This document shows positions 2,880-18,696 of a DNA stretch of 64,000 bases, piece after piece. The position numbers and the translations under genes are program-made. The DNA lies in contig NZ_BIFH01000013.1 of assembly GCF_003967355.1 (NCBI RefSeq), forward strand, positions 678,651-742,650, given 5' to 3'. Below the pieces are notes generated by a model. It was not told the DNA's origin. It ran no database searches and was given only the letters and a program-made list of their open reading frames with translations. This DNA comes from Embleya hyalina. Its GTDB lineage: Bacteria; Actinomycetota; Actinomycetes; Streptomycetales; Streptomycetaceae. The first letter of the stretch is position 1; each line of letters starts with the position of its first letter.

Positions 2880-3662
2880 TCAGGTCGCCTGGATCCGCAG
2901 CCCGCCCTCCTCCTGGGCGTCGTCGCGCAACCGGGTGCGGATGGTCATGCGGGTCCGGTCCGCGCGGAACAGGTCGTGGGACAACTCGAAGACGCGACCC
3001 TGGTGATCCGCCGCCACCCGGACGACGGAGATCAGTGGCGCGCCGGGTTCGACCTCCAGCAACCGGGCCTCGTCCGCGGTGGCGGCGACGACCTCGATTT
3101 CCTCGGTGACCTCGGCGGGGGTGGTGCCGTAGTGCTCGGCGATGAGCTCGTACACGGACCCACCGAGGGGGCATTCCAGGAGGCCGGGGAAGTGTTCGGC
3201 GACGAGTTGCGCGTGCTCGAGGCTGATCGGCCGGCCATCGGCGAGTCGAAGCCGCACCAGGTCGAACACGAGGTCGCCGGACGACAGGCGGAGCCGACGG
3301 GCGGTGTCCTTGTCCGCGGCGCGCAGCGCGGTGGACAGCACGTTGGTGCCGGCTTCGAACCCCTGCCGGCGCAGGTAGGCCGGCACGCCGACGGCCGCGG
3401 AAAGGTCGCGCTCGGCCTTGCCGTGGCTGACGAACGTGCCGCCGCCGCGTCCGGGTACCCGGCGCACGACGCCGCTTTGCTGAAGGGCGTCGAGTGCCTG
3501 CCGCAGGGTGGATCGGCTGACGTCGTACTGCTGGGCGAGGTCGCGTTCGCCACCGAGCTTGTCTCCGGGCCGGAGCAGGCCGCTGCGGATCTGCTCGAGG
3601 ATGCGGCGGCGGACGTCCTCGGCGGTGCCGGACGTCGTGGCTGGGGCTTCGTCATGTTCCAT
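2880..3662 (-). CDS. GntR/HutC-type transcriptional regulator of the microcompartment locus
   Basis: A 260-residue repressor. Residues about 15-80 form the winged helix (VRRRILEQIRSGLLRPGDKL...VSRSTLRQALDALQQSGVV). Residues about 95-250 form a UTRA effector domain, which binds small ligands in the HutC subfamily. ATG at 3662 was chosen; a GTG two codons upstream (3668) is also possible and neither has a strong ribosome site. It follows the permease gene on the same strand, and a TGGT-N4-ACCA palindrome sits just upstream. Regulation of the permease and of the divergent BMC operon by an amine or its derivative is the likely role; this is inferred from position. Confidence 0.85.
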   Translation of the reverse strand: MEHDEAPATTSGTAEDVRRRILEQIRSGLLRPGDKLGGERDLAQQYDVSRSTLRQALDALQQSGVVRRVPGRGGGTFVSHGKAERDLSAAVGVPAYLRRQGFEAGTNVLSTALRAADKDTARRLRLSSGDLVFDLVRLRLADGRPISLEHAQLVAEHFPGLLECPLGGSVYELIAEHYGTTPAEVTEEIEVVAATADEARLLEVEPGAPLISVVRVAADHQGRVFELSHDLFRADRTRMTIRTRLRDDAQEEGGLRIQAT

Positions 3663-3672
3663 GGACACAAGT

Positions 3673-3754: not shown

Positions 3755-5302
3755 TCAGGCCGCTCGTTCCGTGGATTCCTCGAGCACCACGCGGCCGATC
3801 AGCGCGAACCGATGGGGCGCCCGGACCTTCGTGTACAGCGCGAGGACGACACCGAACACGGCGACGCCGAGCACCAGGTAGGGGATCATCCGAAAGATCG
3901 TGGTCTGCGACGCGGCGCCGCCCGCCGTGTCGAGGTTCTGGAAGAGCAGGATCACCACGTAGACCATCGCTAGGCCGCCCACCAACGGCGCCGCGAACGT
4001 GCGCAGCGGGTGGGCGGTTTCGGGGTGCTTGCGCCGTACGTGGAAGTAGCCGATGACGGCCGCGGAACTGAGGATCTGGACGATGAGGATGGCCATCGTG
4101 CCCAGGACGGACAGGACGACGAACAGGTCGAGGTAGGGGTCCTTGCCGGCCAGCGCGAAGCCCAGGACCAACGCCGTGGCGATCCCGCACTGGACGTTGC
4201 TGGCGACGTGGGGCGAGCCGTGTTTCGGGTGTGTGGCGCCGAGGGTGCGTCGGGTGCCGGGTACGACGTCTTCTCGGCCGATGGCGTAGAGGTATCTGGA
4301 CGCACAGTTGTGGAACGCCATGCCGCAGGCGAACGAGCCGGTGACGAGCAGGATTTGGAAGAGGGTGACGGCCCAGCCGCCGAGCAGGACGCGGGTCGGT
4401 CCGAAGAGCAGTTCGGCGGGGGAGTCGCCGCCGGCCACGCGCACCGATCGGTCGAGTCCGTTGGCGGCCACGACCATCCAGGAGACGAAGACGTAGAAGA
4501 CGCCGACGCCGACGACCACCAGCATGGTGGCGATGGGGACGATGCGCTTGGGGTCACGGGACTCCTCGCCGTACATCGCGGTCGATTCGAAGCCGACCCA
4601 CGACCAGAAGGCCATGAACAGGCCGAGGCCGACGCTTGCGCCGGCGACTCCAGAAGCGGCGTCGAAGGCGTTCAGGGGGTTGACCACCTGCGGCACGAAG
4701 CCGTCCGGGCCGCCTCCGTCCACGAGTATCGCCACGGCGAGCGCGGTGAGGATGAGCACCTCGGAGACCAGGGCGAGGCCGAGGACCTTGCTGGTCAGGT
4801 TGATGTCGAAGTGCGACAGTACGGCGTTGAGCGCGAGCATGAGCAACGCGTAGCAGAGCCAGGGCAGGGAAACGCCGAACAGGTCCGCCATGGTCAGCTT
4901 CGCGAAGTAGGCGAACAGGCCGGTCAGCGACGCCTCGAAGACGATGTAGGCGACCGTGGCGAGCAGTCCGGCGCACATGCCCGCCACCTGGCCCAGCCCG
5001 TGTGAGACGAAGCCGTAGAACGCGCCCGCCGCGGTGATGTGTCGTGCCATGGCCATGTAGCCCACGGCGAAGACGGTGAGCACGATGGTGGCCACGAGGT
5101 AGCCGGCGGGAGCGCCGGTGCCGTTGCCGAAACCCACGGCCACCGGCACGTTGCCGACCATCGCGCTGATGGGTGCCGCGGTGGCCACGGCCATGAACAC
5201 CACGGCCACGAGACCGACCGCGTTGGGCCGCAGCCGCTGCACGTGCTCTCGCGGATCGGGCTCGGGCGGGTGGGGCGTCGTTCTCGAACCAATATCGGTC
5301 AT
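3755..5302 (-). CDS. APC-superfamily amino acid/amine permease
   Basis: A 514-residue inner-membrane permease with about 12 hydrophobic segments. It has the APC N-terminal pattern (LVAVVFMAVATAAPISAMVGNVPVAVGFGN near residues 30-60, described here by its first and last residues) and the conserved FWSWVGFES region near residue 230 followed by EESRDPKRIVP. ATG at 5302 was chosen because AAAGG precedes it and the upstream extension is hydrophilic and unconserved-looking. It is divergent from the phospho-lyase/shell operon and is followed by the GntR gene. In RMM-type loci an APC permease imports the amine substrate, here probably aminoacetone or 1-amino-2-propanol; that assignment rests on context. 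Confidence 0.85.
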   Translation of the reverse strand: MTDIGSRTTPHPPEPDPREHVQRLRPNAVGLVAVVFMAVATAAPISAMVGNVPVAVGFGNGTGAPAGYLVATIVLTVFAVGYMAMARHITAAGAFYGFVSHGLGQVAGMCAGLLATVAYIVFEASLTGLFAYFAKLTMADLFGVSLPWLCYALLMLALNAVLSHFDINLTSKVLGLALVSEVLILTALAVAILVDGGGPDGFVPQVVNPLNAFDAASGVAGASVGLGLFMAFWSWVGFESTAMYGEESRDPKRIVPIATMLVVVGVGVFYVFVSWMVVAANGLDRSVRVAGGDSPAELLFGPTRVLLGGWAVTLFQILLVTGSFACGMAFHNCASRYLYAIGREDVVPGTRRTLGATHPKHGSPHVASNVQCGIATALVLGFALAGKDPYLDLFVVLSVLGTMAILIVQILSSAAVIGYFHVRRKHPETAHPLRTFAAPLVGGLAMVYVVILLFQNLDTAGGAASQTTIFRMIPYLVLGVAVFGVVLALYTKVRAPHRFALIGRVVLEESTERAA

Positions 5303-5470
5303 GGCATCGACCTTTCGGAGGCTACGGTCGGCATCGTGGTCGTCTACGACAGAGATTTCCTGGCAAATATGGCTTTTGCGGAGATTCATCGGCGGGATAC
5401 CGGCGATGCTGCCACCGCTGGACGAGGCCAGGCAAGACCTTCACGGCATACGGTTGAGTTGTAGGGAGCG

Positions 5471-5512: not shown

Positions 5513-5558
5513 AAAACAACGGCCCGGACGTGGTCCGCCTGTCGAGGAAGGAGTGATG

Positions 5559-6845
5559 ATGCGCGACTACGGCTTCGTCTCCTACGCATCCAGAGACGAC
5601 TTCTTCGACCGCTCCCGTGCCGCGTGGAACCCCGGCAAGACGCAGTTCTGGCTGGACCAGGGCGTCGATCTCGTCATCGACCGCCGGGAGGGGTATCACC
5701 TCTGGGACGTCGACGGCCGAAAACTGATCGACGTGCACCTCAACGGCGGCACCTACAGCCTCGGCCACCGGCACCCCGAACTGGTCGCGGCCATGAACGA
5801 GGCGATGACCCACTACGACGTGGGCAACCACCACTTCCCGTCCATCGCCCGCACCGCTCTGGCGGAACGCCTGCTCGCCACCTGCGACGGCACCATGGGC
5901 AAGGTCGTCTTCGCCGCCGGCGGCGGCGAGGCGATCGACATCGCGCTCAAGACCGCCCGGCACGCCACCCAGCGCCGCAAGATCGTGTCCATCCGGAACG
6001 CGTTCCACGGCCACACCGGACTCGCCGTCAACGCCGGCAACCCGCGGTTCTCACGGTTGTTCCTGGTCGACGAGCCGTCCCAGTTCCCCCAGGTCGACTT
6101 CAACGACCTGGCCGCGATGGAGTCGGCGCTGCGCGGCGGCGACGTCGCCGCGGTGCTCCTGGAGACGGTGCCGGCGACCTACGGCTTCGTGATGCCCGAA
6201 CCCGGATACCTCGCCGGGGTCAAGGACCTGTGCGAACGGTACGGGACCGTGTACATCGCCGACGAGGTGCAGACCGGCCTCATGCGCACGGGCGAGATGT
6301 GGGGCATCTACAAGGCCGGAGTCTCGCCGGACATCCTGGTCACGAGCAAGGGCACCGCGGGAGGGCTCTACCCCCTGGGCGCGGTCATCGTCGCCGACAA
6401 GGTCGCGGGCTGGCTGGACGAGGACGGCTTCGGCCACATCTCGACCTTCGGCGGGGCCGAACTCGGCTGCATCGTCGCCATGAAGGTCCTGGAGATCACC
6501 GGGCGCCCCCAGACCAGGGCGACCGTCGCCTCGATCGCGGCCCGCCTCGAACGCGGTCTGGCCGACATCCGGTCCGACCATCCGGACTTTTTCGTCGGCA
6601 TCCGACAGAACGGCCTGGTGATCGGCCTGGAATTCGACCACCCCACAGGCGCCCAACTCGTCATGCGGGCGCTGTACGAGAACGGCGTCTGGGCCATCTT
6701 CTCCACACTCGACACCCGTGTCCTCCAGTTCAAGCCGGGATTGCTGATGTCTCCCGAACTCGTCGACGACCTGCTCGAACGCCTCCACCGGGCGGTCGGC
6801 CAGGCCCGCGCCGCCGCACGAGCGACGTCCGGGCGGGCCGCGTGA
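5559..6845 (+). CDS. Class-III aminotransferase-fold PLP enzyme, probable aminopropanol-phosphate phospho-lyase
   Basis: A 428-residue PLP enzyme. The cofactor lysine is Lys264 in VTSKGTAGG; DEVQTGLMRTG near residue 225 is the class-III motif binding the PLP ring nitrogen. In RMM microcompartment loci this family is the phospho-lyase that eliminates phosphate and ammonia from 1-amino-2-propanol phosphate to give propanal, related to ethanolamine-phosphate phospho-lyase. Three starts compete (GTG 5553, ATG 5556, ATG 5559). ATG 5559 has the best spacing from GGAG at 5550-5553. The stop overlaps the next start by four bases (GTGA), so translation is coupled to the aldehyde dehydrogenase. A true transaminase role cannot be excluded from sequence. 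Confidence 0.85.
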   Translation: MRDYGFVSYASRDDFFDRSRAAWNPGKTQFWLDQGVDLVIDRREGYHLWDVDGRKLIDVHLNGGTYSLGHRHPELVAAMNEAMTHYDVGNHHFPSIARTALAERLLATCDGTMGKVVFAAGGGEAIDIALKTARHATQRRKIVSIRNAFHGHTGLAVNAGNPRFSRLFLVDEPSQFPQVDFNDLAAMESALRGGDVAAVLLETVPATYGFVMPEPGYLAGVKDLCERYGTVYIADEVQTGLMRTGEMWGIYKAGVSPDILVTSKGTAGGLYPLGAVIVADKVAGWLDEDGFGHISTFGGAELGCIVAMKVLEITGRPQTRATVASIAARLERGLADIRSDHPDFFVGIRQNGLVIGLEFDHPTGAQLVMRALYENGVWAIFSTLDTRVLQFKPGLLMSPELVDDLLERLHRAVGQARAAARATSGRAA

Positions 6846-8425
6846 GCGCCCGGCGGGCCCAGGTCCGCACGACCGATTGGGGCCCCGATCCGGCGGCACA
6901 CGCGCGAACCCTGCTGGAACGCGCCCGTTGGGCGGCCGACGAATTCGCGTCGTTCGACCGTGCCCGGGTCGACCGCATCGTGCGAGCCGCCGCGCAAGCC
7001 GGGCACGACAACGCCGCCCGCTACGCGGAATGGGCGGTGCGGGAAACCGGGTTGGGCGTGGTCGCGGACAAGACCACCAAGAACGAGGCGTGCTCGCTGG
7101 GTCTCCTGGCCCGCTACGGAGACGAGGACTACGTCGGCGCCCGCTACGACGCGGACGCCAAGATCCTGGAAATCCCCCGTCCCGCGGGCGTCGTCGTCGC
7201 CCTGACACCGTCGACCAACCCGGTCTCGACCGTCTACTTCAAGGTCATGCTCGCCCTGATGACACGCAACGCCATCGTCATCAGCCCGCACCCCGCGGCC
7301 AAGGCCGCCAGCGCGGACGCCGCCCGCACGCTCAACGCGGCGGCCGTGGCGGCCGGAGCGCCCGCCGACGTCGTCCAGGTGGTCGACGAGCCGACCATTC
7401 CCCTGGTGGACGCCCTCATCACCGACCCCGGCTGCAGCGTCGTGCTGGCGACCGGGGGAACCCCCATGGTGCGCGCCGCCTACGGCTCCGGGAACCCCGC
7501 CCTCGGCGTCGGACCGGGCAATGTGCCCGTGCTCGTCGACGCCACGGCCGACCTCGTCGCCGCCGCCGAACGCATCGTGGCCAGCAAGGCGTTCGACAAC
7601 TCCGTCCTGTGCACCAACGAATCGGTGCTGCTGGCCGAAGAGTCCATAGCCCCGGACCTGTTGCGCGCTCTCGACGACGCCGGCGCACACGTGTGCGACC
7701 CCGTCGAGCGCGACCGCCTGCGGGACTGGCTCTACCCCGAGGGCCGGCTCCGCACCGCCGCCATCGGCCGGGACGCGGCCTGGATCGCCGAGCAGGCCGG
7801 ATTCCGCGTTCGGCCGGGCAAGCGGGTACTCGTCGCGCCGTTCGAGCGCCCCTTCGAGGAACCGCTCACCCAGGAGAAGCTCTGCCCCGTGCTGGGATTC
7901 CACACGGTGGCCGACGCGGCCGGCGGCATCCGACTGGCCCGGCTGCTGCTGCGCGGGGGCGGGCGCGGGCACTCCGCCGCCATCCACAGCCGCGACCGCG
8001 CCACCGTCATGGCCTTCGGAGCGGCTGTCGAAGTCATGCGCGTCAGCGTCAACGTCGGTGCCAGTCTGGGAAGTTCGGGCTTCGAGACCAATCTCGCGGC
8101 GACGATGACCATCGGCACCGGGTTCACGGGGCGCAGCTCGCTCGGCGAGAACCTGGAACCCCGCCACCTCGTGCAGTACACGCGTGTGGCGTACAACCGC
8201 GATGCCGGCGTCGCGTTCGACGACTTCGCGGGCATGCAGCCGTGGACCGTCCGGCCCACGCCGCCCGCGGCCCGCCCGGCGGCCCACGACACGGCCCGGC
8301 CGGACGGCGTGTCCCACACCGCGGACGGTCGGGCGGCGGGTCGAGAACTCGACCTGCTGCGCGAGGAGATCCGCCGGCTCGTCCGCGCCGAACTGCACAG
8401 CGTGCTGGGAGCCCACCATGGCTGA
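6842..8425 (+). CDS. Microcompartment aldehyde dehydrogenase with C-terminal encapsulation-type helix
   Basis: A 527-residue enzyme of the CoA-acylating aldehyde dehydrogenase type found in BMCs (EutE/PduP relatives). The catalytic cysteine is Cys257 in FDNSVLCTNE. It should oxidise propanal to propionyl-CoA inside the shell. After the catalytic domain (about residue 465) comes a Pro/Ala-rich linker and then a terminal amphipathic helix (residues 501-524, starting RELDLLREEIRRLV). This linker-helix tail is the layout of encapsulation peptides that target cargo to shell proteins. The GTG start overlaps the upstream stop by four bases and its stop overlaps the next shell gene by eight. No phosphotransacylase is in the window. 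Confidence 0.88.
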   Translation: MSARRAQVRTTDWGPDPAAHARTLLERARWAADEFASFDRARVDRIVRAAAQAGHDNAARYAEWAVRETGLGVVADKTTKNEACSLGLLARYGDEDYVGARYDADAKILEIPRPAGVVVALTPSTNPVSTVYFKVMLALMTRNAIVISPHPAAKAASADAARTLNAAAVAAGAPADVVQVVDEPTIPLVDALITDPGCSVVLATGGTPMVRAAYGSGNPALGVGPGNVPVLVDATADLVAAAERIVASKAFDNSVLCTNESVLLAEESIAPDLLRALDDAGAHVCDPVERDRLRDWLYPEGRLRTAAIGRDAAWIAEQAGFRVRPGKRVLVAPFERPFEEPLTQEKLCPVLGFHTVADAAGGIRLARLLLRGGGRGHSAAIHSRDRATVMAFGAAVEVMRVSVNVGASLGSSGFETNLAATMTIGTGFTGRSSLGENLEPRHLVQYTRVAYNRDAGVAFDDFAGMQPWTVRPTPPAARPAAHDTARPDGVSHTADGRAAGRELDLLREEIRRLVRAELHSVLGAHHG

Positions 8426-9023
8426 ACTGCGCTCGTTCATCTTCATCGATCAACTCCAGCCGCAGACCATGTGCTACCTCGGCACATTCGTGCGAGGCAG
8501 CCTGCCCCGCACCAACATGTCGGCGCAGATCATCGAGGTCGCGCCGGGTCTGGACATCGAGCCGCTCACCGACGTGGCGCTGAAATACGCCGATGTCCAG
8601 GCCGGCATCCTGGTCGTCGAGCGGCAGTTCGGCTACCTCGAAATCCACTCCCGGTCCACCGACGCCGTGCGCTCGGCCGCCGACGCCATCCTGGACGCAC
8701 TGGGCGCGGATCCCGCCGCGGTGCCCACCCCGACCATCCTGGCCGACAAGACGATCACGAGCGTCGATCCGAGGCACGCGTTCCTGATCAACCGGAACAA
8801 GTCCGGCTCGATGGTCCTGCCGGGCGAGTCGTTGTTCACCCTCGAGGTCACCCCGGCGTCCTACGCGATCCTCGCCACGAACCAGGCGGAGAAGGCCGCC
8901 GACATCAAGGTCGTCGACTACCGCATGATGGGCGCCACCGGGCGCGTCTACCTCAGCGGTTCCGAATCCGACGTCCGCATGGCCGCGGAGGCCGCGCGCG
9001 AAGCCGTGCGAGTTCGGCCATGA
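8418..9023 (+). CDS. BMC-T shell protein (tandem BMC domains), first copy
   Basis: A 201-residue trimer-forming shell protein with two BMC folds, about residues 1-95 and 96-200, so that a trimer mimics a hexamer tile. Landmarks are AQIIEVAPGLDIE and VVERQFGYLEIHS in the first half and INRNKSGSMVLPGESLFTLE plus ATGRVYLSGS in the second. It resembles the second BMC-T gene at 10124 through most of its length but lacks that protein's N-terminal extension. BMC-T tiles often carry larger, gated pores for cofactors or bulky metabolites. The start overlaps the dehydrogenase stop by eight bases. ATG at 8418 follows GGGAG. Confidence 0.88.
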   Translation: MAELRSFIFIDQLQPQTMCYLGTFVRGSLPRTNMSAQIIEVAPGLDIEPLTDVALKYADVQAGILVVERQFGYLEIHSRSTDAVRSAADAILDALGADPAAVPTPTILADKTITSVDPRHAFLINRNKSGSMVLPGESLFTLEVTPASYAILATNQAEKAADIKVVDYRMMGATGRVYLSGSESDVRMAAEAAREAVRVRP

Positions 9024-9550
9024 ACGGCACGCCGTCGGCCGTCGGCTCGTCGACCGTCGGGACCTCGTGGGACCAACTGCGCGGCCTCGTCGCCGAGGCG
9101 GTCCGCGAAGCGGTCGCCGAATTGACCTCCGCCACGGCGGATCGCGGGAGTTCACCGCCTTCCGCGGCCGTCGCGCCGACCGCCGTCGCGCCGACCGTCG
9201 CCGAGCCGGACACCCGCCCCGTGGTGCTCCGGGACGACGCGGACCTCGCGCGTTTCGTACGACTGCTGCTCGATCTCACCGCGACACCCGAGGGGCGGGC
9301 GGCCCTCGACGACCGCAGGATCCGATTCCGGCTCGACCACGATCTCCCCGCCCACACCGGCGGTGCCGAGCGGCCCGCACCGGCACAGGGCGTGCATCGC
9401 ATCGAGCGTGGCGCCGTCGGCGAGGCAGCGGTCACCGCGGCCGCCGCCGCCGGACACCACATCGTCGCCGGCCCCCGCGCCGTCATCACCCCTCTGGGGC
9501 GGGACACGGCCCGCCGACTCGGCATCCGCATCGACCGGGAGGAGGCCTGA
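9020..9550 (+). CDS. RMM-locus protein with encapsulation-like N-terminal helix, function unknown
   Basis: A 176-residue protein in the middle of the shell genes. Residues 17-36 form an amphipathic helix (WDQLRGLVAEAVREAVAEL) followed by a Ser/Pro/Ala/Val-rich linker (about 42-68), the mirror image of a C-terminal encapsulation peptide. The rest (about 70-176) is a small alpha/beta-looking domain ending in VITPLGRDTARRLGIRI. A similar ITP-x-ARE/D-x-A-x-x-LG stretch occurs in EutQ and other microcompartment proteins, so this may be a shared short module; that comparison is from memory. No catalytic motif was recognised. It overlaps the BMC-T stop by four bases (ATGA) and the BMC-P start by one. 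A core scaffold or adaptor joining cargo to shell is the best guess. Confidence 0.7.
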   Translation: MNGTPSAVGSSTVGTSWDQLRGLVAEAVREAVAELTSATADRGSSPPSAAVAPTAVAPTVAEPDTRPVVLRDDADLARFVRLLLDLTATPEGRAALDDRRIRFRLDHDLPAHTGGAERPAPAQGVHRIERGAVGEAAVTAAAAAGHHIVAGPRAVITPLGRDTARRLGIRIDREEA

Positions 9551-9810
9551 TGCGCATCGGCACCGTCACCGGATCCGTCTGGTCGACCCGACGCGTCACC
9601 GGCGTCCCGTCGGGCGCGTTCTTGACCGTGGCATTCGAGGCGTCACCGGAGGTGATCATCGCGTTCGACGTCCTGGGAACCGGCGTCGGCGAACGTGTAC
9701 TCGTGGCCCAGGGCATGAGCGCCGCCCGCCGGTTCCCCGACAACGCCCCGATCGACGCCTTGATCATCGGCTCCGTCGACGAGACCTCCACCACCCACCG
9801 CAACTCCTGA
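9550..9810 (+). CDS. BMC-P vertex protein (EutN/CcmL family)
   Basis: An 86-residue pentamer-forming protein that caps the vertices of the shell. It is one small beta-barrel domain of the usual EutN/CcmL length, starting MRIGTVTGSVWSTR and ending with the family's AQGMSAARRF...PIDALIIGSVD core. The start codon shares one base with the preceding stop (TGATG). As the only vertex protein in the locus it would be needed in few copies, which fits its weak-looking ribosome site. The assignment is strong from length and pattern. Confidence 0.9.
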   Translation: MRIGTVTGSVWSTRRVTGVPSGAFLTVAFEASPEVIIAFDVLGTGVGERVLVAQGMSAARRFPDNAPIDALIIGSVDETSTTHRNS

Positions 9811-9830: not shown

Positions 9831-10118
9831 ATGTCCGACGCCATCGGAATGATCGAAACCCGCGGCTACGTCGCGGCGTTCGCCGCCGCCGACGCCATGG
9901 TCAAGGCCGCGAACGTGACCATCATCAGTCGCGAGGAGGTCGGCGACGGCCTGGTCGCGGTCGTCATCAACGGCGACGTCGGAGCGGTCAAGGCCGCCGC
10001 CGACGCCGGCGCGGACACCGCCGCCCAGGTCGGCGAACTCGTCTCCGTCCACGTCATCCCCCGCCCCCACCCCGAAGTGAACCGGCACTTCAACGGCGGC
10101 GGAAACACCACGGGCTGA
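9831..10118 (+). CDS. BMC-H hexameric shell protein
   Basis: A 95-residue protein with one canonical BMC domain (Pfam BMC), the main facet tile of the shell. Landmarks are IGMIETRGYVAAFAAADAMVKAANV at the start (quoted only in part as a marker), VINGDVGAVKAAADAGA in the middle and the C-terminal VHVIPRPHPEV typical of PduA/EutM/CcmK-like hexamers. It follows the vertex gene by 20 bases and precedes the second BMC-T gene by five. Pore residues lie in the loop before the GDV segment; their selectivity cannot be judged here. Confidence 0.93.
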   Translation: MSDAIGMIETRGYVAAFAAADAMVKAANVTIISREEVGDGLVAVVINGDVGAVKAAADAGADTAAQVGELVSVHVIPRPHPEVNRHFNGGGNTTG

Positions 10119-10123
10119 GCGCC

Positions 10124-10882
10124 ATGACCACGACCTCCGACGAGCCGACGGGGGGCGCCGCACGGCGGCGCCCCCGCGCCGCCGCACAAGACCGCACCCC
10201 CGCACCGGACCGCGCCGCCGCGCCCGCCGCCCCGCCGCAGCCCGCCGCGCCGGCGACCGAACTCCGGGTATACCTGACCCTGCGCAGCCTGCAGCGACAG
10301 TTCGCCGCATACTTGGGAACCCCCACGCGAGCCCGCGGCTATCCACCCCTGGAAGGCGACCACGCCCTGATCATCGAAGTGGCCCCCGGACTGGCCATCG
10401 AGCGGGTCATCGACCTGGCGCTCAAGGCCGTACCCGCCGCGGAACCCGGGCTGCTCTTCGTGGAACGCCAGTTCGGCATCCTCGAACTCCACACCGGGAA
10501 GACCGATGATCTGGAGCGCGCCGGCGCCGCCATCCAGGCGGGGATCCGCCGCAGCCCGGCCGACCAGCTCAAGCCCCGCCTGCTGTACACCGACGTGATC
10601 GAGGACGTCACCGACCAGCACGCGGTCATCCTGAACCGCACCCGCCAGGCATCCATGATCCTGCCGGGCCAGACGCTGCTGGTGATGGAGATGACCCCCG
10701 CGCTGTACGCGGCCCTCGCCGCGAACGAGGCGGAACGCGCGGCGCCGAAGAACACCCTGGTCGACGTGCAGATGATCGGCGCCGCCGGCCGCGTCTACAT
10801 CAGCGGCACCCTGGAAGACGTCACCACCGCACGCCACGCGATCGACGCGGCGCTGGCGGCCGTCGAGGGACGTGACCACTGA
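10124..10882 (+). CDS. BMC-T shell protein, second copy, with disordered N-terminal extension
   Basis: A 252-residue tandem-domain shell protein. Residues 1-45 are a Pro/Ala/Arg/Thr-rich, low-complexity tail with no fold. Residues about 46-250 align along their length with the first BMC-T (LIIEVAPGLAIE, FVERQFGILELHT, ILPGQTLLVMEMT, AAGRVYISGT). Duplicated BMC-T genes are characteristic of RMM loci. The extension is not part of the fold and would project from the shell face, so it may bind cargo, other shells or the cytoplasm. It starts five bases after the BMC-H stop, with no separate promoter seen. Confidence 0.88.
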   Translation: MTTTSDEPTGGAARRRPRAAAQDRTPAPDRAAAPAAPPQPAAPATELRVYLTLRSLQRQFAAYLGTPTRARGYPPLEGDHALIIEVAPGLAIERVIDLALKAVPAAEPGLLFVERQFGILELHTGKTDDLERAGAAIQAGIRRSPADQLKPRLLYTDVIEDVTDQHAVILNRTRQASMILPGQTLLVMEMTPALYAALAANEAERAAPKNTLVDVQMIGAAGRVYISGTLEDVTTARHAIDAALAAVEGRDH

Positions 10883-10962: not shown

Positions 10963-12024
10963 ATGTCCCCCGAAAGACCCGAGCCCGACCGCGACGACAC
11001 ACCCGGTGCCGTCGCCGATGAACCGTACGACTCGCTGGCACGCCGCATCCTGCCCGCGTACGGCATCGGCCGCGACACCCCGCTCGAACTGCTGAACCTC
11101 TCGGAGAACGCGACCTATCGTGTCCACGCCGAGGCGGGCACGGCCCCGCGCATCCTGCGGGTCCACCGCCCCGACTACCACACGGCCGCCGAGATCCGGT
11201 CCGAACTGGCCTGGGTCGCGGCGCTTCGCGAGGACACCGAGATCGCCACCCCGGAGCCGATTCCCACTTCGGACGGCCGCCTCGTCGTCGGCGTCGATCC
11301 GCTCACCGCGGGCGGGCAGCGGCGTCATGCCGTCCTCTTCCACCTGATCCCCGGTGACGCTCCGGACGAGAACGTGCCCGCTCCGCAGTTCGAACGACTG
11401 GGCGAGATCACCGCGCGCCTGCACCGGCACGCCGAAACGTGGACGCCTCCCGCCGGGTTCACGCGGATGCGGTGGGACCTCGCCGCGATGCTCGGCCCGC
11501 ACGCGCACTGGGGACGGTGGCAGGACGGGCCCGGCACGACCGGCGAGGTGCGCCGGGTACTCGCGGACACGGAAGCGATCATCCGACAGCGGTTGTCGCG
11601 ATACGGAACCCGCCCGAGTCGATTCGGGTTGATCCACGCCGACCTCAGGTTGGCCAACCTTCTCGTGCACGGCGACCGGACCGCCGTGATCGATTTCGAC
11701 GACTGCGGTTCGGGCTGGTTCCTCTACGATCTGGCCGCCGCCCTCACCTTCCTCGAGGAGACCCCGCAGGTCCCCGATCTCATCGACGGTTGGCTCACCG
11801 GCTACCGCCGGGTCCGCGCACTCACCACCGAAGACGAGAACGAGATCCAAACCTTCATCATGCTCAGACGCCTGATGGTGGTCGCCTGGCTGGGCTCGCA
11901 CCCCGATACCGACCTCGCGCGGGCCAAGGGCGCGGGGTTCACAGAGGTGAGCGCCGAACTGGCGGACGAATACCTCGGCAAGCAGAACCGATGGTGGCGT
12001 GGCCGGTCGGCCAACAGCCATTGA
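10963..12024 (+). CDS. APH-family small-molecule kinase, probable aminopropanol kinase
   Basis: A 353-residue kinase of the aminoglycoside/choline phosphotransferase fold. The N-lobe has NLSENATYRVHAE (nucleotide-binding loop). The catalytic loop is HADLRLAN (His225, Asp227, Asn232) and the metal-binding segment DFDD (Asp244). In RMM loci this enzyme phosphorylates 1-amino-2-propanol with ATP, giving the substrate for the phospho-lyase encoded at 5559. The C-terminal extension is Trp- and Arg-rich. ATG at 10963 has AGGAG nine to ten bases upstream. An 80-base gap separates it from the shell genes. Aminoglycoside resistance is unlikely in this context. Confidence 0.82.
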   Translation: MSPERPEPDRDDTPGAVADEPYDSLARRILPAYGIGRDTPLELLNLSENATYRVHAEAGTAPRILRVHRPDYHTAAEIRSELAWVAALREDTEIATPEPIPTSDGRLVVGVDPLTAGGQRRHAVLFHLIPGDAPDENVPAPQFERLGEITARLHRHAETWTPPAGFTRMRWDLAAMLGPHAHWGRWQDGPGTTGEVRRVLADTEAIIRQRLSRYGTRPSRFGLIHADLRLANLLVHGDRTAVIDFDDCGSGWFLYDLAAALTFLEETPQVPDLIDGWLTGYRRVRALTTEDENEIQTFIMLRRLMVVAWLGSHPDTDLARAKGAGFTEVSAELADEYLGKQNRWWRGRSANSH

Positions 12025-12072: not shown

Positions 12073-12861
12073 ATGACACCCCCATCCATGGACGGCCGCC
12101 GCGTCGTCGTCACCGGCGGCTCGAAGGGCATCGGCAAGGGAATCGCCGCCGTCTTCGCCCGCTCCGGAGCCCACGTGGTCATCACCGGCCGCAACGCCGC
12201 CGACGTCCACGCGACCGCGGCGGAACTCTCCGCCACGGGCGGGAAGGTCACCGGCATCGCGGCGGACGTCGGCGACCCGACGGCGATCACGCGTCTCGCC
12301 GACGAGGCGGTCGAGGTGCTGGGCGGCGTCGACGTCGTCTGCTGCAACGCGGGCATCTTCCCCAGCACTCCGCTGAGCGAGCTCACCGCAGAGCGCATCG
12401 ACGAGGTCTTCAACGTCAACCTGCGCGGCACCATGCTCACCGTGACGGCCTTCCTGCCCGCTCTGCGGCGCAGTGCGCACGCTCGCGTCGTGGTCACCGC
12501 GTCCATCACCGGCCCCGTCACCGGCTACCCCGGCTGGAGCCACTACGCGGCCAGCAAGGCCGGACAAATGGGCTTCGTGCGGGCCGCGGCCCTGGAACTG
12601 GCCCCCCACGGCATCACGATCAACGCCCTGTTGCCCGGCAACGTGCTCACCGAGGGCGTGGTGGACCTCGGCGCCGAGTACGTCCGCGGCATGGCCCGGT
12701 CCATTCCGATGGGCAGGCTCGCGACGAGCGAGGAGATCGGCCACGCGGCGCTGTTCCTCGCCTCCGAACACGCCGGGTTCATCACCGGCCAGGGTCTGAT
12801 CGTCGACGGCGGCCAGGTACTGGCCGAGTCACTGGACGCGATCACCTCCCCCGGCGCCTGA
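12073..12861 (+). CDS. SDR oxidoreductase, probable 1-amino-2-propanol/aminoacetone dehydrogenase
   Basis: A 262-residue short-chain dehydrogenase. The Rossmann motif is TGGSKGIG near residue 15, NAG follows near 98, and the catalytic Ser144, Tyr158 and Lys162 (YAASK) are all present. The C-terminus ITGQGLIVDGGQ is the classical SDR end. In the RMM pathway this enzyme interconverts aminoacetone and 1-amino-2-propanol with NAD(H). It is the last gene of the operon and is followed by a strong hairpin. No encapsulation-like tail is visible, so it may act outside the shell or as a piggy-backed cargo. Confidence 0.82.
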   Translation: MTPPSMDGRRVVVTGGSKGIGKGIAAVFARSGAHVVITGRNAADVHATAAELSATGGKVTGIAADVGDPTAITRLADEAVEVLGGVDVVCCNAGIFPSTPLSELTAERIDEVFNVNLRGTMLTVTAFLPALRRSAHARVVVTASITGPVTGYPGWSHYAASKAGQMGFVRAAALELAPHGITINALLPGNVLTEGVVDLGAEYVRGMARSIPMGRLATSEEIGHAALFLASEHAGFITGQGLIVDGGQVLAESLDAITSPGA

Positions 12862-17076: not shown

Positions 17077-18696
17077 ATGCAAACGATGCCAGGGACGACC
17101 GGGGCGCACGCGTTGGTGCGCACGTTGGTGGACAGCGACGTACGGGTCTGCTTCGCCAACCCCGGTACATCCGAGATGCACTTCGTGGCCGCACTCGACA
17201 CGCTCCCGCAGATGCGGGGGGTGTTGTGCCTGTTCGAGGGGGTCGCCACCGGCGCGGCCGACGGATACGGACGCATGACCGGGCATCCGGCCGCGACGCT
17301 CCTGCACCTCGGACCGGGGCTGGCCAACGGACTGGCGAATCTGCACAACGCCCGACGTGCGAACACCCCGGTCGTGAACGTCGTGGGCGATCACGCCCTC
17401 GGCCACAAGGCGCTGGATTCCCTGCTGGAATCGAACATCGACGCGCTCGCCGGCACGGTCTCCGGCTGGGTACGGCGTTCCGCGTCCATCGAGGACCTCG
17501 GTACGGACGCGGCGGAGGCGGTCGCGGCGACGCTGACCTCGGGCGCCGCGGGGGAGGGCGGGCGGGACCCGTCCCGTAACGGTACGTCCGGGTCCGTCTC
17601 GACCCTCATCGTCCCGGCGGACCTGTCCTGGTCGACGGGTGGCCGGTCGGCGCGACCGGTGAAGATACCCGCGCCCGCCGCGCCGTCCGAACAGCACGTG
17701 CGGTCCATAGCGAAGCTGCTGCGCTCGGGTGAATCGTGCGTGCTCCTCCTGGACGGCCCGGCGTTGAGCGAGCAGGGACTGCGCGCGGCGAGCCGGATCG
17801 AGCGCGCCACGGGCGCACGACTGCTCGCACGGAACTGGGCCGCCCGGCAACGCCGAGGCGCCGGGGTGCCACACGTCGAGCCGCTGGCGTACCGAGGCGA
17901 ACAGATCACCGCCCAACTCCGCGACGCACATCACCTCATCCTCTGCGGCGCCCGTACGCCGGTGACCTCGTTCGCCTATCCGGACCGCAGCAGCCTGCCG
18001 ACGCCCCCCGACACCCGGGTGCACGTCCTCGCCGAGGACGAAGGCGCCGACACCGTACTCGCCCTGGACATGCTGGCCGACCATGTCGCGCCGCACACCG
18101 AGCCGCTCCTGGCCCCGTCGGCCCCGCCGCCCCTGCCGCGCGGCGCGTTGACCGTCGACAACTGGGCGGCGGTCATCGGCGCCCTGCTGCCCGAGGAGGC
18201 CATCGTCTGCGACGAGTCCATCACGGCGGGCATGGCCACCCTGCACGCGGCCACCGCCGGTTCGCCGCCCCACGACGTGCTCGGGTTGACCGGTCTGTCG
18301 ATCGGCCAGGGACTGCCGTCGGCCACCGGCGCCGCGATCGCCTGCCCCGACCGTCCCGTGATCTGCCTCCAGGCCGACGGCAGCGCCATGTACACCCTGT
18401 CCGCGCTGTGGAGCCACGCCCGCGAACACCTCGACATCACGACCGTGATCCTCAACAACAGCTCCTACGCGATCCTGCGCGCGGAACTGGAGCGCGTCGG
18501 TGCCACCGCCGAGGCCTCCGCCCAACTCTTCGACCTGTCCCGTCCGGACCTGGACTTCGTCTCCCTCGCGCACGGCATGGGCGTGCCCGCCGAGCGGGCC
18601 GGGACGGCCGAGGACCTGGCCCGGCAGTTCCGGCGGGCGCTGTCCGAACCCGGCCCGCACCTGATCGAGGCCGTGCTGCTGCCGCACGGCGGCTGA
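17077..18696 (+). CDS. Thiamine-diphosphate enzyme (acetolactate synthase/benzoylformate decarboxylase-like)
   Basis: A 539-residue ThDP-dependent enzyme. The N-terminal Pyr domain has FANPGTSEMHF and the cofactor-activating Glu54 in LFEGVATGAADGYGR. The C-terminal PP domain has the Mg/ThDP-binding motif ADGSAMYT...LNNSSYAIL. Family members decarboxylate 2-oxo acids and some carboligate the product. The set NPGTSE...FEG is common in actinomycete proteins annotated as acetolactate synthase large subunit, but no small subunit is present, so valine/isoleucine synthesis is unlikely. ATG at 17077 has AAAGGAG five bases upstream. Control by the divergent XRE-cupin protein is inferred. Confidence 0.82.
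   Translation: MQTMPGTTGAHALVRTLVDSDVRVCFANPGTSEMHFVAALDTLPQMRGVLCLFEGVATGAADGYGRMTGHPAATLLHLGPGLANGLANLHNARRANTPVVNVVGDHALGHKALDSLLESNIDALAGTVSGWVRRSASIEDLGTDAAEAVAATLTSGAAGEGGRDPSRNGTSGSVSTLIVPADLSWSTGGRSARPVKIPAPAAPSEQHVRSIAKLLRSGESCVLLLDGPALSEQGLRAASRIERATGARLLARNWAARQRRGAGVPHVEPLAYRGEQITAQLRDAHHLILCGARTPVTSFAYPDRSSLPTPPDTRVHVLAEDEGADTVLALDMLADHVAPHTEPLLAPSAPPPLPRGALTVDNWAAVIGALLPEEAIVCDESITAGMATLHAATAGSPPHDVLGLTGLSIGQGLPSATGAAIACPDRPVICLQADGSAMYTLSALWSHAREHLDITTVILNNSSYAILRAELERVGATAEASAQLFDLSRPDLDFVSLAHGMGVPAERAGTAEDLARQFRRALSEPGPHLIEAVLLPHGG

Follow-up and report, generated by a model that had tools for sequence, protein, structure and literature searches.

How the shell of a microcompartment locates its enzyme core and keeps hold of it is a central question of the field. 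The described proteins closest to the one analysed here are PduM and EutQ. In the available text of two reports (PMC12108088, PMC9132943), PduM is a low-abundance structural protein that joins core and shell: a signal at its N-terminus targets it to the core, and when PduM is lost, core and shell come partly apart and the compartments are oversized or elongated. When residues 1-37 of PduB are missing, PduM is found with the cargo and not with the shell (PMC9132943, available text); the PduB-PduM link is disputed in the accessible part of PMC12108088 (2025), where PduM is said to have no known homologues outside Pdu compartments.

For Salmonella EutQ, the accessible part of PMC12487888 describes residues 1-99 as linking shell and cargo: EutQ lacking residues 9-41 remains with the cargo but is no longer associated with the shell, cargo peptides are bound at micromolar affinity by residues 62-99, and the partners shown for the arm were EutL and EutM rather than EutN. 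The EutQ sequence logo presented there is limited to sequences more than 80% similar, and the carboxysome linkers CcmN and CsoS2 are named as comparable to EutQ (PMC12487888, same part). In an earlier pull-down, EutM binding needed the EutQ N-terminus, which was placed on the putative cytosolic face of EutM (PMC4827028, in the text available).

The job of a shell-core linker is thus already known, and what is new here is a candidate linker in a compartment type without a named one. In the literature searched, no linker named for RMM compartments was found, nor any paper that connects PduM and EutQ with an RMM protein. The module described below was unreported across PduM, EutQ, TIGR02536, PduL fusions and RMM proteins in the literature searched, including the available part of Sutter et al. 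2021 (PMC8217296).

The RMM locus and its overlapping genes

The DNA analysed was a 64,000-nucleotide stretch of Embleya hyalina (the window), in which the genes of interest are arranged as follows: permease (reverse strand), aminotransferase, AldDH, BMC-Tdp, linker-type gene, BMC-P, BMC-H, second BMC-Tdp, kinase and SDR (Table 1). The complete RMM gene set is present (permease, aminotransferase, AldDH, BMC-T, BMC-P, BMC-H, phosphotransferase and SDR), as described in the available text of Axen et al. 2014 (PMC4207490). Judged by this gene content, the window locus is an RMM-type aminopropanol microcompartment locus. The two BMC-Tdp proteins are 45% identical to each other. A GntR-type regulator is an expected neighbour of an RMM locus, and frame 2880-3668 (-) looks like one by eye. 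Elsewhere in the genome, a third, weak BMC-domain match was seen (C68:5573-5704, E 8.6e-4, below the family cut-off).

The open reading frame of 176 residues that the first-pass annotation had placed at 9020-9550 is present, and it is embedded between two shell genes with the codon overlaps that had been reported. Because of these overlaps (ATGA and TGATG), the BMC-Tdp, linker-type and BMC-P genes are probably translationally coupled. The protein had no Pfam match, even with the threshold at E 1, nor a meaningful match among the NCBIfam families.

Table 1. Features of the RMM locus and of the 176-aa protein (positions in the window; residues are those of the 176-aa protein)
Feature	Position	Strand	Basis or remark
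Amino-acid permease of RMM locus	3755..5389	-	PF13520
Class-III aminotransferase of RMM pathway	5553..6845	+	PF00202
Acylating-type aldehyde dehydrogenase (AldDH)	6842..8425	+	PF00171, CoA-acylating ALDH models; GTG start 6842
AldDH encapsulation-peptide-like tail, last ~25 residues	8348-8422	+	Putative partner of the linker-protein helix
BMC-Tdp shell protein 1 (CcmP-like)	8418..9023	+	PF00936; best NCBIfam beta_CO2some_P, below its cut-off
176-aa RMM linker-type protein gene	9020..9550	+	ATG 9020, TGA 9550, 176 codons; translation, homologues
ATGA overlap, linker-type gene start / BMC-Tdp stop	9020..9023	+	Sequence
N-terminal helix, encapsulation-peptide-like	residues 17-40, 9068..9139	+	Low-confidence AF2; conserved LRxLVREVLRD in 22 homologues
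Pro/Ala/Ser-rich linker	residues 41-65, 9140..9214	+	Sequence; pLDDT <50; length differs among homologues
Middle region, two short predicted helices then RxRFRL	residues 66-106, 9215..9337	+	Conserved in family
C-terminal module, proposed shell-docking unit	residues 124-174, 9389..9541	+	AF2 module model; profile comparisons
TGATG overlap, linker-type gene stop / BMC-P start	9548..9552	+	Sequence
BMC-P pentamer (EutN/CcmL)	9550..9810	+	PF03319 E 3e-18
BMC-H hexamer	9831..10118	+	PF00936 E 6.5e-27
BMC-Tdp shell protein 2	10124..10882	+	Best NCBIfam beta_CO2some_P E 2.7e-58, below its cut-off
APH-type kinase of RMM pathway	10963..12024	+	PF01636
Short-chain dehydrogenase (SDR) of RMM pathway	12073..12861	+	PF13561, PF00106

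Distribution of the protein

Of 394 genomes sampled from the class, 33 were matched by a five-row profile of the RMM protein. With the upstream BMC-T protein as query, 31 genomes were matched in a same-size class draw, and all 31 were among the 33 profile-positive genomes (Fisher p 5e-44; the two draws were taken as identical, and the genome handles listed for them agree). The matches in the two extra genomes (G332 and G363) were weak and were taken as false, no shell gene being present on the fetched stretches (L077, L078). A further short match (L009 in G008, E 4e-4), in a 595-aa frame on 3.2 kb without a shell gene, was likewise taken as false.

RMM-type loci were found in 28 of the 31 BMC-T-positive genomes. 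On every one of these 28 fetched fragments, BMC-P was present next to the linker-type gene, which lay directly before it; BMC-H was carried by 27 fragments, a BMC-T more than 60% identical by 25 and AldDH by 22. The fragments without that BMC-T (L016, L034, L036) stop near the linker-type gene. The remaining three genomes (G091, G260, G133) have other compartment types, and the C-terminal module only. Because homologues occupy the same place in all 28 RMM loci sampled in the class, 9020-9550 is, on this comparative evidence, a real gene and no chance ORF; the presence of homologues in other RMM loci, on which the first-pass annotation had made its interpretation depend, was found in every such locus of the sample.

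The closest named relative found was Embleya scabrispora, with conserved gene order; between the gene and its Embleya homologue, 126 codons are identical, 22 changes are silent and 22 change the residue. In a phylum-wide sample of 396 genomes there were nine matches, all in BMC loci, one of them (G774) a full RMM locus outside the class. No homologue was found in viral contigs, nor in plasmids searched with one RMM homologue (L007).

Architecture of the RMM protein

The 22 homologues share one layout: N-terminal helix, variable Pro/Ala linker, middle region, second linker and C-terminal module; the middle region is missing from one homologue (L038). The full-length AF2 model, for which two sequences only were used as input, had a mean pLDDT of 53, with helices at residues 17-40 (mostly <50), 73-87 and 90-97, a module mostly at 71-82 and about half of the 176-aa chain predicted to be disordered. 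The module alone was modelled at pLDDT 93.4 (pTM 0.75) as a beta-alpha-beta-alpha-beta unit (own numbering: strands 3-12, 25-35 and 50-52; helices 14-23 and 37-46). In the fold search, Foldseek returned nothing at E <=0.001, either with the full two-sequence model or with the module alone. A PDB sequence search with the module profile gave three matches (E 0.019-1.9), none meaningful.

Eight positions are invariant in the family (R21, F103, L105, G131, E135, T157, L159, R165); they include no set of His, Cys or Lys and are unlike a catalytic set.

The encapsulation-like helix of the first-pass annotation fared better in the family than in the window protein. The hydrophobic moment of the latter does not stand out (p 0.14 for residues 17-36, 0.21 for 18-35) and the helix is modelled at low pLDDT, but its position and pattern are conserved across the 22 homologues, nine of which reach p <0.05 (median 0.06), and the family alignment therefore argues more strongly for the helix than the window sequence alone.

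A C-terminal encapsulation-like helix was seen on AldDH in the window and in nine other RMM-type loci inspected. When the family helix profile was run against non-self ORFs, the aminotransferase tail of G177 came first and an AldDH tail third, with non-significant scores. The G177 locus (L069) is a variant RMM-type locus in which the aminotransferase differs (28% identical) and ends with nearly the same encapsulation-like tail as AldDH; no kinase match was seen near its shell genes.

Relation of the module to EutQ, PduM and TIGR02536 proteins

The stretch that had been likened to EutQ, VITPLGRDTARRLGIRI, lies within the C-terminal module, and the likeness is upheld. A module profile built from RMM proteins only (A3, 22 rows) aligned with residues 4-46 of E. 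coli EutQ at an hhalign E of 2.7e-5, so that the RMM module appears to be a sequence relative of the shell-associating N-terminal stretch of EutQ (H1/H2); the corresponding E for E. coli EutT was 0.004. Over 1153 E. coli stop-to-stop ORFs, A3 ranked EutQ first (32.0) and EutT second (21.4); the best unrelated ORF scored 20.3, so EutT is only just over background.

Rows of the A5 and A7 profiles were found via the RMM profile, and the pooled-profile E of 1.6e-17 is inflated for this reason. The less biased tests are those of proteins chosen by name or place: 19 such proteins were scored with the RMM-only profile against 622 background ORFs. Nine outscored the whole background, at the expected positions: a small protein of a Rhodococcus plasmid (42.9), EutQ (32.0), an Enterococcus cupin protein (27.5), four of the five PduM (Klebsiella, two Salmonella and E. 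coli, 21.9-27.1), C. difficile TIGR02536 (21.4) and E. coli EutT (21.4). Citrobacter PduM, C. difficile EutT, two Cetobacterium proteins and E. coli IF2 did not exceed all 622, and Citrobacter PduL, C. difficile EutD, an Enterococcus protein and two cupin-only proteins were at noise level.

In profile-profile comparison, the RMM family aligned with PduM residues 123-162 of 163 (E 1.3e-4), the two C-termini matching end to end. The pooled modules (A7), which include rows found via the RMM profile, matched PduM at 9.8e-6 and TIGR02536-type proteins at 2.1e-6. Searched against 18,950 NCBIfam models, 18 of the 22 members touched TIGR02536 (best E 3.8e-4), three touched PduM and one EutQ. The window protein itself had no match to the PduM models (TIGR04493, NF011957, PF15953), and the 22 members stayed below the PduM cut-offs (best 19.0 bits against 179 and 14.8 against 50) and below that of TIGR02536 (best 20.1 against 152.6, over the last 40-46 profile positions only). 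No relation to PduM was found for the middle region (hhalign E 0.17-0.34), and outside the module nothing in the RMM protein matched PduM or TIGR02536. The RMM protein was not filed as PduM, because the module alone matches and the cut-offs are not reached. A search of the window protein with Pfam showed no EutQ cupin domain (PF06249). By these profile comparisons, the RMM protein, EutQ, PduM and TIGR02536 proteins appear to have the module in common.

The proteins can accordingly be compared part by part. PduM (159-163 aa for the proteins used here) resembles the RMM protein in its N-terminal helix, which in the latter is predicted at low confidence, in a module at its last residues and in a gene placed directly before BMC-P; it differs in a middle region unrelated by profile and belongs to PDU-type loci, not RMM loci. 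The EutQ arm (1-99) likewise has the module, a flexible linker and a helical part, but in EutQ the module comes first and a cupin domain is present, whereas in the RMM protein the module comes last and there is no cupin domain. The TIGR02536 protein has an N-terminal helix (by eye), a C-terminal module and, in C. difficile, a gene before BMC-P; it is longer (241 aa) and its middle region is unrelated. CcmN and CsoS2 bridge cargo and shell, as is proposed for the RMM protein.

Other carriers of the module

In a phylum search with the pooled profile A7, 30 matches were obtained at E <=1e-5 (eight of them A7 rows), and 28 of the 30 were in BMC loci. The other two were an IF2 (L128) and a match on a contig of 6.6 kb that has no shell gene (L127); at L127:5196-5330(-), the module-like stretch opens the frame, and the continuation resembles, by eye, a 2-oxoacid dehydrogenase E1 subunit.

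In actinobacterial EUT loci (L059, L060, L062, L064, L065), a small stand-alone module protein adjoins BMC-Tdp and has the EutQ-like order module, linker, helix; in L060, L064 and L065, EutQ has a module of its own. The module also occurs at the C-terminus of PduL in BMC loci of the incomplete-core type (L063:9790-10785(-), L066, L112-L115, L117-L124, L126 and L142), most of these PduL, and all the complete ones, also starting with an encapsulation-type helix; the PTAC domain was confirmed for the L063 protein. At the N-terminus of a lactate/malate dehydrogenase, it was found in two further BMC loci (L061:7385-8680(+), L067:6997-8178(+)), and in the Rhodococcus plasmid locus (L134:17167-18506(+)) the module gene and the dehydrogenase are separate, neighbouring genes. 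C. difficile has a cupin-only protein of EutQ type and the module on TIGR02536 instead (L137:14848-15570, 17513-17977); in E. coli K-12 the module is on EutQ (L041:21303-22004), and the eut locus has no annotated TIGR02536. A stand-alone module protein with a cysteine-containing tail was also seen at L116:8809-8931(-); its BMC locus includes PduL, EutS-like and several BMC-H genes.

The order pduL-pduM-BMC-P was found in all five plasmid PDU-type loci, and the C. difficile EUT locus reads eutD-TIGR02536-BMC-P, so that the position just before BMC-P is common to the RMM gene, pduM and the TIGR02536 gene.

Taken together, a single mobile module of ~45 residues (ITPxAR / LTPLAR type, beta-alpha-beta-alpha-beta) may be the common shell-docking unit of catabolic microcompartments, an idea to which we give slightly less than an even chance. 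Its stand-alone carriers would be the RMM protein, PduM, TIGR02536 proteins and the small proteins of actinobacterial EUT loci (at the protein end), and its enzyme-fused carriers EutQ, EutT, PduL and lactate/malate dehydrogenase.

A proposed shell-core linker and its alternatives

We think it rather likely that the RMM protein has no enzymatic role and links shell and core in the RMM (aminopropanol) microcompartment, as a functional counterpart of PduM and the EutQ N-terminal arm. The N-terminal helix would join the enzyme core via encapsulation peptides, such as that at the AldDH C-terminus; the Pro/Ala linkers would provide reach, and the C-terminal module would dock on the shell, most likely on or beside the tiles whose genes are coupled (BMC-Tdp, BMC-H, BMC-P). 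Loss of the gene would be expected to separate core from shell. Binding of the helix to the core and of the module to the shell is proposed by analogy, because the RMM protein unites two kinds of part that EutQ and PduM also have, and because of the AldDH tails. Several results speak against this reading: PduM went with the cargo and not with the shell when PduB 1-37 was missing, the window helix is not significantly amphipathic, the family helix profile reached encapsulation peptides at non-significant scores only, the likeness to PduM and TIGR02536 is confined to the module and far below the curated cut-offs, and Citrobacter PduM, C. difficile EutT and the Cetobacterium proteins did not exceed the background.

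A scaffold confined to the core, with both ends inside it and the module serving as a cargo-cargo contact that condenses the enzymes and makes no shell contact, is considered unlikely. The finding that PduM is with the cargo and not with the shell when PduB 1-37 is missing would suit such a scaffold, and means that a PduM module may not be enough by itself to hold the shell; on PduL and lactate/malate dehydrogenases, too, a role in core assembly is as natural as shell docking. Against it, the module-equivalent residues of EutQ are those found dispensable for cargo and needed for the shell, and the EutQ NMR shifts seen with a cargo peptide fall outside them (PMC12487888, accessible part). Moreover, module-bearing PduL, in the complete cases, already has an encapsulation-type helix, so its module should serve another purpose. 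The core scaffold of the first-pass annotation comes close to the favoured linker, and ranks below it in the form that stays within the core.

Specific docking of the module to the BMC-P pentamer, with the protein setting shell closure or size, is judged improbable. The placement of the gene directly before BMC-P in 28 of 28 RMM loci, five of five plasmid PDU-type loci and one C. difficile EUT locus points that way, as do the scarcity of PduM and the oversized or elongated compartments that follow its loss (PMC12108088, PMC9132943, available text), but gene order does not imply contact, the EutQ arm was shown to work with EutL and EutM and not with EutN (PMC12487888, accessible part), and the stand-alone copies in actinobacterial EUT loci come after BMC-Tdp.

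Contact with RNA or the ribosome, the module retaining an IF2 domain-III-like role such as the coupling of translation and assembly, has very little likelihood. When the module model was compared by VIA-align with the best Foldseek chains, almost every top row was IF2, aIF5B or eIF5B (best Z 7.3, rmsd 1.3, 54 aligned; a Z below 8 can mean merely a common arrangement). PF11987 (IF-2) was touched by six of the 22 members (best E 0.011), and the pooled profile A7 matched IF2 genes, Pfam-confirmed (PF11987) in four loci (L128 and, from among the matches weaker than 1e-5, L129-L131). E. coli IF2, however, gave E 0.07 with the RMM-only profile, below three background ORFs, and the relatives of the protein work through protein-protein contact. 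The module may descend from an IF2 domain-III-like fold; because of the non-significant score of E. coli IF2, this descent was retained as no more than a lead. IF-2, PDU_like and E3_binding surfaced together in Pfam at E ~0.01.

The earlier idea of an unrecognised pathway enzyme, perhaps for a missing acyl transfer, was abandoned as hardly credible: the acylating-type AldDH and the absence of PduL-type PTAC (PF06130) from the protein and from the genome (control genomes gave matches) leave a CoA-recycling gap, and elsewhere PduL carries the module as a fusion, but the protein has no enzyme family match in Pfam or NCBIfam, no conserved catalytic set and a chain predicted to be half disordered, and its folded part is a module that PduM also has.

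Implications

Through the shared module, the RMM protein is connected with PduM, the EutQ linker arm and TIGR02536 proteins, and a candidate shell-docking unit of ~45 residues can be named. A common docking module, if true, would end the orphan status of PduM and would allow a single construct to test shell-core tethering in different compartment types; compartment engineering, too, could make use of a docking tag that is short and portable.
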